Made by a program: the position numbers and the translations under genes. From positions 124,001 to 188,000 of the forward strand of contig JACQEZ010000007.1 in NCBI GenBank assembly GCA_016200325.1: a stretch of 64,000 nucleotides of DNA, read 5' to 3'. Positions 15,842 to 26,165 of the stretch are shown here, piece after piece. The first letter of the stretch is position 1. Each line of letters starts with the position of its first letter. The notes beneath the pieces are model-generated. The model had not been told where the DNA came from and searched no databases. It saw nothing but the letters and a program-made list of their open reading frames with translations. This DNA is from Candidatus Manganitrophaceae bacterium. Its GTDB lineage: Bacteria > Nitrospirota > Nitrospiria > SBBL01 > Manganitrophaceae.

Positions 15842-16093
15842 CCAGACCGGACCTTTCAGCACGTTGCGTCGGGCCTCTTTCCTATTGTATCGACCTTGCG
15901 GATAGATCGATTCCGACCGCTCTATTCCCCTTTTTCCCATCCGCCCTCCGCCATTCATCTATTTTGATGTTTTCATGCAGTGCTTTGGTATCGATCTTTT
16001 CCAGCGGCTTGATTTTCAGATTTAAATGATGTGAATCTAGAGGAAGGACCAACCGGCGCAGGAAACAAGGGATCGGGCGAGAGGGGTAAAACG

Positions 16094-17302
16094 ATGTCGG
16101 GCGAATCAATGCGGATTCTCACGATCAACAGCGGCTCATCCAGTCTGAAGTTCGCCCTTTATCGGACCGGCTCCTCCGAAACGTTGCTGCAAGCGGGAAG
16201 GATCGAGCGGATCGGTCATCGCCCCGCGCTCTTTCGCGTTCGGGATGCTGCCGGCCAGACCTTGATTGACGAATCTCCTTCCATGCCGGATCATGACGCT
16301 GCATTGAACCGGCTCTTTGAGTGGTTGAAAAGCGGCGGCCCGGCGCCCGATTTAGAGGCCGTCGGACACCGGGTTGTCCATGGCGGAATGCAATACGATC
16401 GGCCCCATCGGATCACGTCGTCCCTCTGCGACGTGCTTGAAGCGCTGCGGCCGCTCGCGCCGGATCACCTTCCCCACGAGATCAAAGCGATCCGGTCGGT
16501 GGGGATCGCGTATCCCACGCTCCCTCAGGTCGCCTGTTTTGATACCGCTTTTCATCGGCAGATGCCTCCGAGCGCGCAGCACCCGGCCCTGCCGCGGGAG
16601 CTTTGGAAAGAGGGGGTCCTTCGCTACGGCTTTCACGGCCTCTCCTACGAGTACATCGTCGATGCGCTGAGGAGGGAACGAGGAAAAACGGCCGACGGCC
16701 GCCTCGTTATTGCCCATCTCGGAAATGGCGCGAGCATGGCGGCGGTCGATCATGGCAGAAGCGTCGATACCACGATGGGAATGACCCCCACCGGCGGACT
16801 GGTCATGAGCAGCCGCTCGGGCGATCTTGATCCGGGAATGCTCCTTTATCTTCTTCAGGAGAAAGGGATGAAGCCGGCTGAGGTCGATGAGATGGTCAAC
16901 CAGAAAAGCGGGCTGCTCGGAATCTCGGGAGCCTATTCAGATATGCAGGAGCTCCTCGATCGCGAGCAGGAAAATCCCCACGCCGCAGAGGCGGTCGCGC
17001 TCTTCTGCTACCAGGCGAAGAAGTTCTTGGGCGCGCTGGCCGCCGTTTTAGGGGGGGTTGAGACGCTTGTCTTTACCGGAGGGATCGGTGAGAACGCCCC
17101 CGCCGTTCGAGAGCGGATCTGCGCCGGAATGGGATTTTTGGGGATCGCGCTCGATCCGACGCGGAATCGGGCGAACGCTTCGGTGATCTCCCAAGAGGGG
17201 AGTCCGACGCAGGTCTTGGTGATGAAGACCAACGAAGAGCTGATGATCGCAAGACAGACGCATGCCCTGCTTCGCGGGGGAGAAACAAAGGAGACGGAAT
17301 AA
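16094..17302 (+). CDS. ackA: Acetate kinase
   Basis: 402 residues from ATG 16094, chosen because GAGAGGGG lies 6-8 bases upstream; the frame is open further left without a better ribosome site. It converts acetyl phosphate and ADP to acetate and ATP. Signatures: the N-terminal [42 protein letters not shown], the glycine-rich [11 protein letters not shown] and [17 protein letters not shown]. Length is standard. It is followed after two bases by zwf and then xfp; phosphoketolase makes acetyl phosphate, the substrate of this enzyme, so the operon forms a pathway. Confidence 0.95.
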
Positions 17303-17304
17303 AA

Positions 17305-18699
17305 ATGACAGATCTCGATTCTGATGCATTTGTTTTTTTCGGCGCCACGGGGGACTTGGCCTACAAGCAGATCTTCCCGGCCCTTCAGGCGATGATCCGG
17401 AGGGGGCATTTCAATATCCCGATTATCGGTGTCGCCAAATCGACCGAAGGGCTCGATGCCCTGCGGGCCCGCGCGCGGGAGAGCGTCGAGGAGCACGGCG
17501 GAGTCGACCGGCGCGCATTCGAGGTCCTTTCGTCCAAGCTCCAATTCGTCAATGGGGATTACAACGCGCCGGAGACCTTCCGTCAGCTGCGAAAGGCTTT
17601 GAACGGCGCGTCCCGGCCGCTCTATTACCTGGCGATCCCGCCCGATCTGTTTGCAACCGTCGCCCAAGGGCTGAGCCACTCGGGATGCGACACCGGCGCG
17701 CGCCTCGTCGTAGAGAAGCCGTTCGGCCGGGACCTCGCCTCGGCGCAGGCGCTCAGCCGGACGCTGCATCAGGCCTTCCCGGAATCGTCCGTTTTCCGGA
17801 TCGATCATTTTCTCGGCAAGGAGCCGGTCCAGAATCTCCTTTATTTCCGTTTTGCCAATTCATTCCTGGAGCCGATCTGGAACAGCAACTATGTGCGGAG
17901 TGTTCAGATTACGATGGCGGAGAACTTCGGCGTGCAGGGCCGCGGTTTTTTTTATGAGGAGGTCGGCGCGATCCGCGATGTCGTCCAAAACCATATCTTG
18001 GAGATCGTCGCGCTGCTGGCGATGGCGGCACCGAGCGGCCGTGATCCAGACGCGTTGCGGGACGAGAAGAAGCGGGCCTTTCGCGCGATGCGTCCGCTCG
18101 TGCCGACCGACGTCGTCCGCGGCCAATTCCGCGGCTACCGAAGCGAAAAAGGGGTGGCGCCCGATTCCCAGGTCGAGACCTTCGCCGCGATCAAGCTCTC
18201 TATCGACACCTGGCGATGGGCCGGGGTTCCCTTCTACATCCGGACCGGGAAGCGGATGGCGGTGACGGCGACCGAGGTCTTGGTCGAGCTCAAGCAGCCG
18301 CCCCTGGCCGTCTTCGATCCAATCAGCCAGGAGCATGCGAACTATTTTCGCTTCCGCCTCGGTCCCGATGTGTCGATCTCTCTCGGCGCCCGCGCCAAGC
18401 TGCCGGGAGAAGCGATGGTCGGGGAGGGGATCGAGCTGATCGTCCGGCAAGCCCCCGGCGATGAGATGACGCCGTACGAACGGCTCCTGGGCGACGCCCT
18501 CCGGGGGGATCGGATGCTCTTTGTCGACGAGGAGAGTGTGGAGGCGGCGTGGAATGTGGTCGATCCGATCCTGGGGAACGCGACGCCGGTCCATGAATAC
18601 GCGCCGGACAGCTGGGGGCCGGCGGAGGCCGATCGACTCATCGCGGGGGATGGCGGCTGGCACAACCCCCAGCCGTCGGCGGAAAAGCCGCCGGTCTAA
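17305..18699 (+). CDS. zwf: Glucose-6-phosphate 1-dehydrogenase
   Basis: 464 residues. It oxidises glucose-6-phosphate to 6-phosphogluconolactone with NAD(P)+. The Rossmann motif [16 protein letters not shown] is at the N-terminus, [11 protein letters not shown] follows, and the active-site signature RIDHFLGKE has the catalytic His168. It is shorter than the E. coli enzyme (about 490) but complete at both ends. It starts two bases after ackA and is followed at 48 bp by xfp. No 6-phosphogluconolactonase or 6-phosphogluconate dehydrogenase is beside it, so its product must be handled elsewhere. Confidence 0.95.
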
Positions 18700-18747
18700 G
18701 ACGAACTGCTTTCGCTGTTGTAGAAATAAATCAGGAGGAGAGCTGCC

Positions 18748-21156
18748 ATGAATAAATCGGCCACGCACCTGTCGGATACCGCCCTCGGAGAAACCCCCCT
18801 CTCTAGCGAAGCGCTTGACCGGATCGATGCCTACTGGCGCGCGTGCAACTATCTCTCCCTCGGGATGTTGTATCTCCAAGAAAATCCGCTGCTGCGGGAG
18901 CCGCTCAAGGCCGAGCATATCAAACGCCGCCTGGTCGGCCATTGGGGATCGGACCCCGGTCAGAGCTTTGTCTGGGTTCACCTCAATCGGCTGATCAAGA
19001 AAGACGACCTGAACATGATTTATCTCTCCGGCCCCGGACATGGCGCCCCGGCGGTGCTCGCAAATGCGTATCTCGAGGGGCGGTACTCCGAAGTCTATCC
19101 CGAGAAGAGCGAAGATCTGGAAGGGATGCGGCGGTTCTTCAAGGAATTTTCTTTTCCGGGCGGGGTCGGCAGCCATTGTACCCCCGAGACGCCCGGGTCC
19201 ATCCACGAAGGGGGCGAGCTCGGGTATAGTGTCTCGCACGCGTTCGGCGCCGCCTTCGACAATCCCGACCTGATCGCCGCGGTCGTCATCGGGGATGGTG
19301 AAGCCGAGACCGGGCCGCTGATGGGATCGCTCCACTCCAACAAATTTCTCAATCCGATTCGCGATGGCGCCGTCTTGCCGATCCTTCACTTAAACGGCTA
19401 CAAGATCGCCAACCCGACGGTCCTGGCGCGGATCTCGTCGGAGGAGCTGCATCAACTCTTTTCCGGGCTCGGCTGGAGCCCTTCCATTGTCGCGGGAGAA
19501 GATCCTCTGATCATGCACCAGAAAATGGCGGCGACGCTCGAAGCGTGCATTGGTCAAATTCGCTCTATTCAAGCGGAGGCGCGCCGGAGCGGCACCCCTA
19601 CCCGGCCGCGGTGGCCGATGATCGTCCTCCGGACCCCGAAAGGCTGGACCGCTCCCAAAGAATTAGACGGTCACAAGCTTGAAGGCTCCTGGCGGGCGCA
19701 CCAGATCCCGATCGCCGATGTCGCGACGAATTCGGCCCATCTCAAAATCCTGGAGGATTGGATGCGGAGCTACCGGCCGGAAGCGCTGTTCGATGAGAAG
19801 GGAAGGCTTGTGCCGGAGCTGAAGGCGCTCGCCCCCGCCGGCAATCGGAGAATGAGCGCCAATCCGCATGCGAACGGCGGGCTGCTGCGAAGAGCGCTTC
19901 AGCTTCCCGATTTTCGGAGCTATGCCGTAGCGGTCTCCCGGCCGGGCGCGCTGGAGGCCGCGCCGACCTACCTTCTCGGACAATTTCTGCGCGACGTGAT
20001 GCGCCGGAATACCGATAACTTCCGGCTCTTCGGGCCGGACGAAACGGCCTCCAACCGTCTGGAGGCGGTTTATGAAGCCACCAAGAAAACCTGGCTGGAG
20101 GATTACAGACCGGAGGATGCCGACGGGGGGGAGCTCTCTCCCGACGGCCGCGTGATGGAGATACTGAGCGAGCATACCCTCGAAGGGTGGGCGGAGGGGT
20201 ATGTCTTGACCGGCCGTCACGCCCTCTTTGCCTCTTATGAAGCCTTTCTCCATGTGATCGACTCGATGGTCAATCAGCATGCGAAGTGGCTGGAGAAATG
20301 TAAAACCGAGGTCGCCTGGCGCGCCTCCATCCCTTCGTTGAACTTCTTGGTCACCTCGACCGTCTGGCGGCAGGACCACAACGGCTTTACCCACCAGGAC
20401 CCCGGCTTTATCGATGTCGTCACCAATAAAAGCGCGACGGTCACCCGGATCTATCTCCCGCCCGACGCGAACTGCCTTTTGAGCACGGCCGATCACTGTT
20501 TGAGGAGCGTCGATTATATCAATCTGATCGTGGCCGACAAACAGTCCCATCTGCAATATCTCGACATGGAAGCGGCCGTAAAGCATTGCGAAAAGGGGGT
20601 CGGCGTCTGGTCCTGGGCGAGCAATGATCAGGGGGGCGAGCCGGAGGTCGTCATGGCGAGCGCAGGGGATATCGTCACCGCGGAAGCGCTGGCGGCCACC
20701 GCCCTTCTGCGCGAGAAGTTCCCCGATCTAAAGATCCGCTTCGTGAACGTCGTCGACCTCTTCCGGCTCCAGCCCGACACCGAGCACCCGCATGGGCTAT
20801 CGGACGACGACTTCGATACCCTCTTTACGACCGATCAGCCGGTGATCTTTGCCTTTCACGGCTATCCCGCGCTCATCCACAAGCTCGCCTATCGCCGCGC
20901 CAACCACGACAACATGCATGTGCACGGCTACAAGGAAAAGGGGAGCATCAATACCCCGCTCGGGCTGATGATCCTAAACCAGGTCGACCGATTCAGCCTG
21001 GCGATCGACGCGATTAATCGGGTTCCCCGATTACAGGCCTCCGGCGCTTCCGTAAAAACCTGGCTGGAAGACCAAATTCGTCAGAATCTCGATTACATCA
21101 ACGGATACGGCATCGACCAGGAGGAGATCCGGAAATGGAAGTGGCCCGGTGTGTAG
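18748..21156 (+). CDS. xfp: Phosphoketolase (xylulose-5-P / fructose-6-P)
   Basis: 802 residues, normal for the family. It is thiamine-diphosphate dependent and cleaves xylulose-5-phosphate (and often fructose-6-phosphate) with phosphate to acetyl phosphate. Signatures visible: [26 protein letters not shown], the TPP/Mg site GDGEAETGP, and the C-terminal [20 protein letters not shown] lies upstream of ATG 18748. With acetate kinase two genes upstream it provides one ATP per acetyl phosphate, a shunt seen in several autotrophs and heterofermenters. Direction here (sugar catabolism or glycogen turnover) cannot be decided. Confidence 0.96.
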
Positions 21157-22039: not shown

Positions 22040-22633
22040 ATGAGAAGCGCGCCATCCATAGGGGGAATCTGCCTCGCCGGTGGGCTCGGCCGGCGCATCG
22101 GCGGCCGGTTCAAGGCCTTTCTTCCCCTTCAAGAAGAGAGGATCTTTGATCGGCTCTATCGACTGCTCTCCTCCCTCTTTGACGAGATCGTGGTCGTCAC
22201 CGATCGGTCGGAGGCCTTTGCTCCTTTTGAGGTGAAGGCGGTCTCCGATCGTCTGAGAGGAATCGGACCGCTCGGCGGGATCGATGCCGGATTGAGATCG
22301 CTGAAAAGCGATAAAGGATTCGTTGTCGCATCCGATATGCCGGGGCTCTCCGCCGATGCGATTCGGTGGATGATGGCGCAGAGCGGCCCCGAAGAGGTCT
22401 TGGCGCCGGTATTTCAAGGCCGGCCGCAGCCGCTGCATGCCATTTATGCGGTTGGATGCGCGCCGCAGATCGAGCCGTTTGCTGCCCGGGGTGGAAGGGC
22501 GCTCCACCGTTTTCTCTCTGAGGTTCGGACCACTTATCTCCCCCCAGAGGCCTTTCCCGCTGAAATCGATCTGAGCCGGGCTTTTTTCAACGTCAACACC
22601 CCTGAGGATCTGGAGGGGTGGCAGCGCCGCTGA
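22040..22633 (+). CDS. mobA: Molybdenum cofactor guanylyltransferase
   Basis: 197 residues. MobA attaches GMP to molybdopterin to make the guanine dinucleotide cofactor (MGD). Family marks: the N-terminal nucleotide loop GICLAGGLGRRIGGRFKAFLPL, GPLGGIDAGL, VASDMPGL with the metal-binding Asp, APVFQGRPQPLHAIYA and the C-terminal FFNVNTPEDL. It sits directly upstream (66 bp, same strand) of a molybdopterin oxidoreductase that should need bis-MGD, so the pair is a cofactor-plus-apoenzyme unit. Confidence 0.92.
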   Translation: MRSAPSIGGICLAGGLGRRIGGRFKAFLPLQEERIFDRLYRLLSSLFDEIVVVTDRSEAFAPFEVKAVSDRLRGIGPLGGIDAGLRSLKSDKGFVVASDMPGLSADAIRWMMAQSGPEEVLAPVFQGRPQPLHAIYAVGCAPQIEPFAARGGRALHRFLSEVRTTYLPPEAFPAEIDLSRAFFNVNTPEDLEGWQRR

Positions 22634-22699: not shown

Positions 22700-25567
22700 A
22701 TGAAGCAGACACGGGACAGCATTGCAGATGTTTGGGGTCCTCGGACGCCGTATCGTGGAAGCTGGCCGGTCCGGGTCGATGAGCATCTCGTCGAGGCGCC
22801 GGAGCGCTGGGTGCAGTCGGCTTGTGTCCTCTGCTCCAATGGATGTGCGCTGGACATCGGCGTAAAAGGGGGGAAGATTGTCGGCGTCCGGGGGAGGGGA
22901 GCCGACCGGGTGAACCACGGCCGGCTTGGCCCGAAAGGATTGCATGGCTGGGTGGCGAACAGCAGTGCCGACCGGTTGACCCGGCCGCTGATTCGAAAAG
23001 AGGGCCACCTGCAAGAAGCCTCCTGGGAGGAGGCGATGGCGTTGATCGTCCGGCGCTCGAAAGAGATCCGCGATCAGCATACCAGCGGCGCCATCGGTTT
23101 TTACACGAGCGGACAGCTCTTTTTGGAAGAGTATTATACCCTCGGCGTCATCGGGAAGGCGGGCCTCGGCACACCGCACATGGATGGGAATACCCGGCTC
23201 TGCACGGCGACGGCGGCCGCGGCCCTCAAAGAGAGCTTCGGCTCCGACGGACAGCCCGGCTCTTACACCGACCTCGATACAACCGATGCGATCTTCGATG
23301 TCGGACACAACATGGCGGAGCAGCAGACGGTCCTCTACATGCGGCTTCTCGATCGGCGGCGCGGGCCGAATCCCCCTAAATTCGTCATCATTGATCCTCG
23401 GGCGATTCCCGCCGCCAAAGAGGCCGATGTCCATCTGCAGCTGAAGGTCGGGAGCAATGTGGCGGTGATGAACGGCCTGCTCCATCTGATTATCAAAAAT
23501 AAATGGATCGACTCGGGATACATCGGGGCGCATACGATCGGCTTTGACGACCTCGAGAAGACGGTGCAGGCCTGGACCCCGGCGCGGGTGGAGCAAATTT
23601 CCACCGTGCCGGCCAAGAAACTCCAAGAAGCAGCCGAGATTCTCGGGACGGCGCCGACCCTCGTCTCGGCCGTCCTCCAGGGGTTTTACCAATCGATGCA
23701 GGCGACCGCCGCATCGTGCCAGGTGAACAACCTCCATCTGATCCGAGGATTGATCGGGCGCCCCGGCTGCGGCATCTATCAGATGAACGGCCAGCCGACG
23801 GCGCAGAACACCCGGGAGTGCGGCGCCGACGGCGATCTGCCGGCGTTTCGAAATTGGGACAACCCGAAGCATATCGACGAGCTCGCCCGTCTTTGGAACG
23901 TCGATCGGGGGATCATTCCGCACTGGACCCCGCCGACCCACGCGATGCAGATCTTCCGATACGCCGAGCAGGGATCTATTAAAATGCTCTGGATCAGCGC
24001 CACCAACCCGGCGGTTTCCCTGCCCGACCTGTCTCGCGTCCGGCCTATCTTAAAGAAAGAGGGGCTCTTCGTCGTCGTTCAGGATGCTTTTATGACCGAG
24101 ACCGCCGCGCTGGCCGATGTCGTCCTCCCGGCGGCGATCTGGGGGGAGAAGACCGGCTGCTTTACCAATGTCGATCGGACCGTTCATCTTTCTCAAAGGG
24201 CGATCAAGCCGCCGGGTGAGGCGCGGGCCGACCTCGATATTTTCCTCGATTATGCGCGGCGAATGGATTTTCGCGACAAAGACGGCGCGCCGCTGATTAA
24301 ATGGAAGACACCCGAAGAGGCTTTCAATGCCTGGAGAGAGTGCACGCGGGGCCGCCCCTGCGACTACACCGGAATCAGCTATGCCAAGCTGACCGGCGGG
24401 TCGGGGATTCAGTGGCCCTGCAACGAGGAGCACCCCGACGGCGCCACCCATCTTTACGCCGGAGGAGTATTTGCCACCGATCCGGAGCAATGTGAAACCT
24501 ACGGGCATGACCTGCTGACCGGGGGGGCGGTGACACCGGAGAAGTATCGCGCCAAGGAGCCGAATGGGCGGGCGTTTATCAAACCGGCGGAATATCTTCC
24601 CCCGCACGAAGCGCCCGATGAAGCGTATCCCTTCTGGTTGACGACCGGCCGGATCATCTACCATTTTCACACCCGGACGAAGACCGGCCGCTCCAAGGCG
24701 CTGAACGATGCGGCGCCCGACGGCTTCGTCGAGATCGCGCCGACCGATGCCGAGCGGCTGGGGATTCAAGAGGGAGATTGGCTGGAGGTGACCTCCCGCC
24801 GAGGAAGGGTTCAGGAGCGGGCCCGGATCACCGGCATTCATCCGGGGCACCTCTTTATTCCTTTTCATTATGGATATTGGGACGAGCCGGGCCGACCGCG
24901 CGCCGCCAATGAATTAACCCTTACCGAGTGGGACCCGGTCAGCAAGCAGCCGCAATTCAAGTATGCCGCGGTCCAGATTCGGAAAATCGAACCGCCGGGG
25001 GAAGGAAAGCCAGAGGGCATCATCGGCAAAGCGGCCTCGGCGATCAAAGAATCGGCGAAGGAGATCAAGGAGACCTTGACGCCCGACCTGTCTAAGCGGG
25101 ACGAACAAGGGCTGCATGTCGGCAATTACCTCGGCCTGCTTCATGGCAGCGAAGGGCAGCTCGCGCAGGCATTGTTGACCGTCGCGGAGCACCATCGCGA
25201 CGAGCCCGATGTCCATTCTGAATGCAAGCTGCTCGCCGCTTGGTCTCATCAACACACCGCGGCGCTCCGTCCATTGGTACAGCGGTATGGCGAGGAGAAA
25301 AGCAGCGCGCCGGAGAATCTTCAGAAAGCGCTCTTTCATGGGCCTCGGACCGGCGGGATCGGCCTGCTGCGCGACCTGCATGACCTCTGGCTGCTCGCCA
25401 ATGAGGTCCATCTCTGTTGGACCGTTCTGCTGCAGGCGGCCAGGGCGCTCCATGATGAGGAGTTGAAATCGGTCTGCAAGAAGCTCGACGGCGAGACCGA
25501 GCGGCAGATCGCCTGGCTGCTGACCCGAATCAAGCAGGCCGCCGCCCAAGCGCTCGCGGTGAAATAA
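22700..25567 (+). CDS. Molybdopterin oxidoreductase, nitrate-reductase-like, with C-terminal helical fusion
   Basis: 955 residues; no Tat signal is seen at the N-terminus, so likely cytoplasmic. An iron-sulfur motif Cys42-x2-Cys45-x3-Cys49 is present, but the usual fourth cysteine (GRLCxKG) is Gly77 in GRLGPKG. The likely molybdenum ligand is Cys168 in NTRLCTATAA, as in NapA/NasA and formate dehydrogenases. Further cofactor segments are GRPGCGIYQMNGQPTAQNTREC, SATNPAVSLPD and the C-terminal MGD domain near ANELTLTEWDP. After a charged linker (about 770-800) there is a His/Glu-rich helical bundle to the end. Substrate (nitrate, formate or other) is not decided; mobA precedes it and an HPP-family gene follows. 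Confidence 0.88.
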   Translation: MKQTRDSIADVWGPRTPYRGSWPVRVDEHLVEAPERWVQSACVLCSNGCALDIGVKGGKIVGVRGRGADRVNHGRLGPKGLHGWVANSSADRLTRPLIRKEGHLQEASWEEAMALIVRRSKEIRDQHTSGAIGFYTSGQLFLEEYYTLGVIGKAGLGTPHMDGNTRLCTATAAAALKESFGSDGQPGSYTDLDTTDAIFDVGHNMAEQQTVLYMRLLDRRRGPNPPKFVIIDPRAIPAAKEADVHLQLKVGSNVAVMNGLLHLIIKNKWIDSGYIGAHTIGFDDLEKTVQAWTPARVEQISTVPAKKLQEAAEILGTAPTLVSAVLQGFYQSMQATAASCQVNNLHLIRGLIGRPGCGIYQMNGQPTAQNTRECGADGDLPAFRNWDNPKHIDELARLWNVDRGIIPHWTPPTHAMQIFRYAEQGSIKMLWISATNPAVSLPDLSRVRPILKKEGLFVVVQDAFMTETAALADVVLPAAIWGEKTGCFTNVDRTVHLSQRAIKPPGEARADLDIFLDYARRMDFRDKDGAPLIKWKTPEEAFNAWRECTRGRPCDYTGISYAKLTGGSGIQWPCNEEHPDGATHLYAGGVFATDPEQCETYGHDLLTGGAVTPEKYRAKEPNGRAFIKPAEYLPPHEAPDEAYPFWLTTGRIIYHFHTRTKTGRSKALNDAAPDGFVEIAPTDAERLGIQEGDWLEVTSRRGRVQERARITGIHPGHLFIPFHYGYWDEPGRPRAANELTLTEWDPVSKQPQFKYAAVQIRKIEPPGEGKPEGIIGKAASAIKESAKEIKETLTPDLSKRDEQGLHVGNYLGLLHGSEGQLAQALLTVAEHHRDEPDVHSECKLLAAWSHQHTAALRPLVQRYGEEKSSAPENLQKALFHGPRTGGIGLLRDLHDLWLLANEVHLCWTVLLQAARALHDEELKSVCKKLDGETERQIAWLLTRIKQAAAQALAVK

Positions 25568-25642
25568 AAAGATCAAAAGAGAGGGTGATTAGAAAATGAA
25601 AACCGAGAGGTTATCAGAGAACAGCGGCGGCAGGGGGCGCCG

Positions 25643-26165
25643 GTGAAAAAGGGGGTTGCCGCCCTTCCCGATCTGGTCTGGGCCCCGGTCGGCGCGGCCG
25701 TTCTGACCCTGATCGTCGGCCTTGCAGGGTTGGCGGTGGGTCAGCCGTGGCTCTTTCCGAGCCTGGGGCCGACCGCTTTTTTGCAGGTGGAATATCCGGA
25801 GCTTCCCTCTTCCCGCTTTTACAACACGGTGGTCGGCCACCTGGTCGGATTGGCGGCCGGCGTGGTGGCGGTGGTTCTGCTCCATGCCGGCGCGGCCCCG
25901 CCGGTCCTCTCGACAGGAGCGCTTACGCCGGTTCGCGTACGGCGCGGCCGTACTCGCCACCGGACTGATGTTGCTCGGCGTCCTCTTGCTGCGGGCCTCT
26001 CATCCCCCCGCCGCAGCAACGACCCTGCTGGTGGCCCTCGGCGGATTCAAGGTCTCCCTGCATACACTCACCGTGGTTGTCTCCGGCGTTTTAATCGTCG
26101 CGCTGGTGGGGGAGGGGCTCCGGCGCCTCCGTCTCGGAAGCCATTTATTTAGAGGAAAGGGCTGA
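25643..26165 (+). pseudogene. HPP-family membrane protein, frameshifted
   Basis: Two frames together encode one HPP-domain protein of about 170 residues with four hydrophobic helices. The first (from GTG 25643) gives LVWAPVGAAVLTLIVGLAGL to VLSTGALTP. The second continues with FAYGAAVLATGLMLLGVLLL and the family signature SHPPAAATTLLVALGG, to the stop at 26163-26165. The switch lies in about 25920-25945 and needs +1 (or -2). An ATG at 25596 with a good ribosome site is in the second frame but stops at 25644-25646, so a second, compensating shift near the G-run is possible. Some HPP proteins have been linked to nitrite transport, which would suit the neighbouring reductase. Sequencing error is an alternative. 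Confidence 0.72.

Follow-up and report, generated by a model that had tools for sequence, protein, structure and literature searches.

Within the DMSO reductase family, DorA, TorA and BisC are enzymes without an iron-sulfur cluster. In those relatives of nitrate reductase and DMSO reductase that have been studied, the proximal cluster is reported to go in before the molybdenum cofactor and to enable the insertion of the latter (PMC5123574). In the solved arsenite oxidase AioA, a C-C-C-Ser motif binds a [3Fe-4S] cluster, and AioA is called the sole member of the superfamily with such a cluster in an excerpt of a PLoS One paper of 2013 (PMC3758308). The open-licence literature in PubMed Central yielded no description of the family considered here, in which the cluster site holds either three cysteines or none. 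Mycobacterium smegmatis NasN (MSMEG_4206, 1351 aa) and MSMEG_2237/6816 (760 and 720 aa) were considered as known members by description only, as given in PMC7816997, and are not claimed as such.

The window analysed is a stretch of 64,000 nt from Candidatus Manganitrophaceae bacterium (Nitrospirota; GCA_016200325.1, JACQEZ010000007.1, positions 124,001-188,000 of the forward strand). At 22700..25567 on its + strand, on which the mobA and HPP genes described below also lie, an intact frame of 955 aa encodes a molybdopterin (Mo-bisMGD type) oxidoreductase, with a NapA/NasA-like core fused to a ferritin-like tail. PF04879, PF00384 and PF01568 each score above cut-off in a Pfam search of the protein, and the latter two place it in the DMSO reductase (Mo-bisMGD) superfamily. 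The full-length AlphaFold model has a mean pLDDT of 89.7 from 51 aligned rows, with a low-confidence linker at residues ~768-805 (25001..25114), and its best structural matches are the Desulfovibrio NapA entries 2v45 and 2nap (TM-score 0.92-0.93 by target). No apparent twin-arginine export signal was seen at the N-terminus by eye. The cluster cysteines C42-x2-C45-x3-C49 (residues 42-50; 22823..22849), which define alignment columns 42, 45 and 49, are followed by GRLGPKG (residues 74-80; 22919..22939), where Gly77 occupies the place expected of the fourth cysteine. Cys168, the Mo ligand by homology, and the family-specific Thr169 (23201..23206) align with Cys140-Met141 of DdNapA; Arg372 (23813..23815) aligns with DdNapA Arg354, which we take to be the pocket arginine of the nitrate reductase type. 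The numbering of a first-pass annotation of the locus was correct, the alignment giving C42, C45, C49, G77, K79 and C168, and it was right that the Mo ligand is intact.

With NapA, NasA and NasC the enzyme shares the fold (2v45, 2nap), the Mo-Cys, Arg372, Gln365 and the C-x2-C-x3-C motif, but it differs in having Gly for the fourth Cys, Thr for the Met after the Mo-Cys, and, as a tail or partner, a ferritin-like domain. The 955-aa protein stays below the NCBIfam cut-off of every nitrate reductase, formate dehydrogenase and arsenite oxidase model. It scores 429.9 of 1100 and 358.6 of 1000 bits with the NasC and NasA models (NF047855 and NF041323), 343.3 of 930.55 with the NapA model TIGR01706, from whose four-Cys pattern it also departs at Gly77, and 160.8 of 359.05 with the AioA model TIGR02693, having Cys168 where AioA has Ala. 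The score with the formate dehydrogenase alpha model TIGR01591 is 501.4 of 666.25 bits, and Thr169 replaces the His that follows the Mo-Cys or SeCys of that enzyme.

Relatives were collected from a scan of genome contigs, from which the best 80 of 289 were kept; altogether 113 loci were gathered, and the ORFs long enough at both ends for alignment numbered 102, including two copies of the query. The proposal that the enzyme represents a distinct branch held up. In an 80-row tree of the 'quick' type, built with the motif columns excluded, 59 rows form one clade against 21 canonical four-Cys rows with an SH-aLRT of 100, and a second tree of 48 rows (LG+G4 without a mixture model) gives the same separation at 100/100. 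The tree program flags the joining of the long rows L088 and L122 as unsafe. The clade thus stands apart from the canonical four-Cys enzymes and not among the standard nitrate reductases, a placement which the first-pass annotation had named as evidence against its proposal. Moreover, it has fixed residues of its own. Directly after the Mo-Cys, 59/59 family rows have Thr, compared with Met in 17/21 and His in 4/21 canonical rows. Arg372 is likewise fixed in 59/59 and found in 17/21 canonical rows, the four with His after the Mo-Cys carrying Ser or Cys instead; before GQ, 4/21 canonical rows have Arg and the family Asn or Ala. Further family-specific fixed positions include W12, P17, W22, W84, T171, H203, L326, Y330 and G378.

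The missing fourth cysteine is a conserved trait of these enzymes. C42, C45, C49, G77 and G80 are present in 29/29 three-Cys rows of the first sample, and Gly77 recurs in 11/11 further distinct loci, hence in 40/40 distinct three-Cys loci; these final counts of distinct loci omit the truncated L042, L048, L050, L052 and L053, outgroups outside the tree, and further matches in the actinobacterial class for which no locus was retrieved. The observation is biologically real; what it marks is a new variant within a superfamily already known and not a system of a new type. It had been said that most relatives read GRLCxKG at this place, which is true of distant ones (Cys in 21/21 canonical rows) but not of close ones, where Gly, Asp or Glu is found.

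It had further been argued that a cluster here would need a non-Cys ligand or become [3Fe-4S], and as a constraint this stands, given the AioA precedent and the lack of any replacement-like Cys elsewhere. Every column was scanned for a Cys that the three-Cys group has and the zero-Cys group described below lacks, and outside 42, 45 and 49 no column had a Cys fixed throughout the three-Cys rows and confined to them. C548, C554, C574 and C598 were discarded as substitutes since they are equally common in the zero-Cys group, as were columns 197, 325 and 487, in which Cys occurs in 21-41% of three-Cys rows (and in no zero-Cys row). A fourth Cys supplied by another region is rejected on the aligned sequences. 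Three Cys ligands make it probable that the cluster is [3Fe-4S], or else a [4Fe-4S] in which a single iron can exchange, and the three-Cys family becomes a candidate second [3Fe-4S] case in the superfamily. Like AioA it has three cluster Cys and a non-Cys residue at the fourth position; AioA, however, has Ser there, no Cys as Mo ligand, a Rieske partner and a separate branch. Four aligned AioA rows from the window's phylum, where AioA was found in 9/295 sampled genomes, read C-C-C-Ser with Ala at the Mo-ligand position. In a tree including these rows, also of the 'quick' type, AioA sits on a long branch of its own, apart from the three-Cys/zero-Cys clade, so that the loss of the fourth Cys looks independent of AioA, although the length of that branch (3.03) makes its placement unsure.

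The residues beyond the linker had been recognized as a helical bundle, and the AlphaFold model agrees, with helices at 802-831, 836-863, 885-917 and 920-953 after a linker at 768-804. The tail (residues 802-955; 25103..25564) modelled alone gives a ferritin-like bundle with a pLDDT of 88.4 (33 rows). Its highest Z, 18.4, is with apo-bacterioferritin (148 aligned, rmsd 3.2), while YciF 2gs4 reaches 17.7 (rmsd 2.5, 150 aligned), to be read against a typical best Z of 14 for five largely helical models that lack a clear match; the best Foldseek match has an E of 1.3e-3, and none passed 0.001. Because helical bundles can score high, the assignment concerns the fold only, and it is by predicted fold that the tail belongs to the ferritin-like superfamily. 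The fold is common to YciF/YciE (DUF892) and the DUF2383 ferritin-like stress proteins, from which the query tail differs by having no ExxH, hence not the two of a diiron site, and identity is 8-14% among the structural matches listed. The query tail misses the DUF892 cut-off (PF05974; 9.9 of 23.7 bits), and among the tails searched 7/33 match DUF2383 (best 2.7e-5) and 1/33 DUF892. At least two ExxH anywhere in the sequence are found in 10/57 tails, and conserved tail positions include E818, H832, D892, Q912, Q936 and W939 but no pair of ExxH motifs.

Most relatives encode the tail in an ORF of its own immediately after the core gene. A tail was found at 55/56 family loci of the first sample, the exception being the truncated L051, as well as at L087, and at 33/34 loci of a later sample. 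Besides the query and the zero-Cys L046, the members with core and tail fused include alphaproteobacterial, acidobacterial and planctomycete ones; fusions in several lineages suggest that the tail has been fused repeatedly and is physically associated with the core. No tail was detected near L088 and Staphylococcus L122, both of them C-C-C-Gly, so Gly77 need not depend on the tail and the two traits are separable. The supposition that the branch has an electron partner of its own was not borne out, the tail being ferritin-like, usually an adjacent gene, and in the query devoid of ExxH. At the sensitivity of the scans made, no recurring electron-transfer neighbour emerged among the gene clusters of 56 loci, many of which are out-of-frame shadows of real genes, and ten scanned neighbours shared no electron-transfer gene, one (at L016) being a pyridine-nucleotide oxidoreductase.

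The reading that we prefer, at a probability of about 0.5, is a soluble bis-MGD oxidoreductase for an oxyanion, most likely reducing nitrate to nitrite, with a three-Cys [3Fe-4S] or site-differentiated cluster and a ferritin-like partner. Such an enzyme would derive from NasA/NapA-like nitrate reductases, and its substrate, a small oxyanion, would be reduced or interconverted at a molybdenum with a Cys ligand. The proximal cluster, held by three Cys, would probably be [3Fe-4S], or else a [4Fe-4S] of which one iron can exchange, and the C-terminal bundle may act as a subunit dedicated to docking or stability rather than as a classical electron-transfer module; this role, like the electron donor, is a matter of inference. 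In favor of nitrate are NapA as the best fold match, Arg372 in 59/59 rows and neighbouring HPP genes of the nitrite type. Against it, the cut-off is missed with every curated nitrate reductase model, NirB is above cut-off in just 14/27 genomes or records (in the window's genome the match is partial and below it), and most loci have no HPP beside them. Some hosts may therefore simply assimilate nitrate, but this is not the general case. In addition, Thr169 stands where 17/21 canonical rows have Met, so the pocket differs from that of a proven nitrate reductase.

In the window, mobA, the enzyme gene and an HPP gene are aligned in a row on the + strand. The adjacency of mobA had been pointed out before, and is real: a MobA-like NTP transferase gene for MGD synthesis (22040..22633; PF12804) ends 66 bases upstream of the enzyme gene. 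As part of a conserved module it was dismissed, tblastn having found mobA at only three other gathered loci, one of which (L054) belongs to the family. Farther upstream, at 16031-21156, are frames in a row that presumably encode acetate kinase-like, glucose-6-phosphate dehydrogenase-like and phosphoketolase-like proteins. Downstream lies a gene for an HPP-family membrane protein (TM_HPP; 25619..26165), broken in the assembly by a frame shift near 25905-25927; it is read in two frames, so that either the gene is broken or the assembly is in error. At 12/64 distinct sources searched, including the window and the partial L025, the tail is followed by an HPP gene in the same orientation. At L053 this gene lies ~1.6 kb farther on, at L120 a formate/nitrite transporter gene intervenes, and in Gloeothece (L185) HPP is also downstream, the core and tail being in unannotated or short frames. 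Any HPP was found in 11/27 genomes or records, and beside the family enzyme in six of them (G000, G117, G302, G303, G315 and W01). The Arabidopsis HPP protein AtNITR2;1 transports nitrite, according to an excerpt of PMC4137279. Genes for FNT and SLAC1 anion channels occur near other family loci, and an anion-channel-like gene adjoins the tail in a cluster of five Bacteroidota loci, the one scanned being SLAC1. Just upstream of the Curtobacterium member, at L184:2934-4613, there is a second molybdopterin-dependent oxidoreductase, as annotated.

For the cluster, an alternative that we regard as possible, though clearly the less probable one, is an ordinary [4Fe-4S], whose fourth iron would be held by water, a main-chain or side-chain ligand, or the tail. 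Site-differentiated [4Fe-4S] clusters with three Cys are known from other families. The tail, however, is not a required ligand, as the three-Cys members L088 and L122 have none that is detectable, and AioA, with the same three-Cys pattern, holds [3Fe-4S] according to the excerpt cited above (PMC3758308). It is doubtful, and less probable again, that the enzyme mainly oxidises (for example, nitrite to nitrate) or detoxifies oxyanions in aerobic, stress-exposed bacteria by means of a [3Fe-4S] cluster of high potential, like that of arsenite oxidase. The cluster of AioA has a potential of +270 mV, as an excerpt of PMC3758308 gives it; HPP and FNT are transporters of the nitrite/formate type, and hosts include Deinococcus, Hymenobacter, Rubrobacter, Modestobacter and Methylobacterium. 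Nevertheless, no cytochrome or Rieske partner gene recurs near the enzyme in the clusters examined, and the tree does not make AioA its closest relative. A formate dehydrogenase or other C1 enzyme of the FdhF type is unlikely. TIGR01591 is the top-scoring NCBIfam model (501 bits), the best PDB sequence match is FdhF of HDCR, and in Halomonas fdhD and fdhF lie downstream of the family gene; yet that score is under the cut-off (666), the Mo-Cys is followed by Thr instead of His, Asn or Ala stands where 4/21 canonical rows have Arg, and the tree groups the family with NasA/NapA-like rows, apart from the His rows. A sequencing error or decaying gene is highly improbable, for although the neighbouring HPP gene is frameshifted and a derived group of four loci has lost active-site residues, the 955-codon frame is intact, and the identical residues of 40/40 three-Cys loci already contradict it.

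The picture of a three-Cys branch, which the first-pass annotation had drawn correctly, overlooked a clade nested within it that is devoid of all four cluster cysteines. This actinobacterial subgroup has His45, Asp49 and Asp80 in 57/57 loci and keeps the Mo-Cys in all. The residue pattern was defined on a first sample, in which 30/30 zero-Cys rows have His at 45, Asp at 49 and Asp at 80, position 42 being Ser in 20, Thr in 7 and Ala in 3, and position 77 Asp in 15 and Gly in 15. It was then tried on later loci, which after removal of six duplicates comprised 42 distinct new ones. Of these, 11 were three-Cys and without exception C-C-C-G-G, 27 were zero-Cys and without exception His-Asp-Asp80, and the remaining 4 made up another class, X. 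Three-Cys and zero-Cys states occur without intermediates among the sampled family, and only at columns 45, 49 and 80 does each group have a fixed residue (>=93%) that differs from that of the other. As 185/765 columns are invariant across the 30 zero-Cys rows, invariance alone is not rare, and what stands out is the coordinated switch at the cluster pocket. The zero-Cys rows form one clade with an SH-aLRT of 95 in the 80-row tree and 91 in that with AioA rows, and an unresolved fork in the 48-row tree, so that a single origin is likely, not proven. DorA, TorA and BisC also have no cluster Cys; unlike them, this subgroup keeps Cys at Mo and has the fixed His45/Asp49/Asp80.

Class X comprises four actinomycete loci (L168-L171), ~50% identical to the query, with S-G-D/E at 42, 45 and 49, R79, E80, A169 and L372, Gly at the Mo-ligand position in 2/4, and 18/47 superfamily-invariant columns changed. 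Three of its rows nest inside the zero-Cys rows beside Planobispora L028 (100/98 in the 48-row tree), and a tail gene is still near its loci. To judge from these residues, class X proteins look unable to bind the molybdenum cofactor any longer; having intact frames, they are likely a non-catalytic offshoot retained with the ferritin-like partner. Tentatively, and with odds well below even, the lineage may be one of stepwise cluster replacement, from four Cys to three Cys and Gly, then to the actinobacterial His45/Asp49/Asp80 site (often with Asp77), which would occupy the cluster pocket and either bind a non-sulfur metal or act as a charge network in the structural role of the cluster, and finally to a Mo-less form, with the same ferritin-like partner throughout. 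With three-Cys, His/Asp and Mo-less states in one clade beside four-Cys relatives, one can ask directly if electron transfer requires the cluster, if folding does, or if neither does, and the significance of the zero-Cys clade would rise if His45/Asp49/Asp80 hold metal.

The family is widespread, not rare, and little studied. At a threshold of E 1e-200 or better, and with the centre genome counted in each group, members are present in 48/296 sampled genomes of the Modestobacter class (one actinobacterial class), 4/296 of the Spirosoma phylum and 3/289 of the Methylobacterium class. In the window's phylum, 26/198 genomes match at E 1e-100, three of which (G000, G117 and G169) are in the family by motif. 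Several plasmid records annotate a member simply as 'nitrate reductase'; the plasmid copies of Halomonas sulfidaeris (L180) and Rhodococcus rhodochrous (L179), with fragment or no annotation, may be broken. A contig titled Vibrio cholerae strain 35D (L053) carries an Arthrobacter-like copy, which is probably assembly contamination, and a MAG labelled Methanomicrobiales archaeon (L019) has a fused core-tail gene, through either transfer or misbinning.
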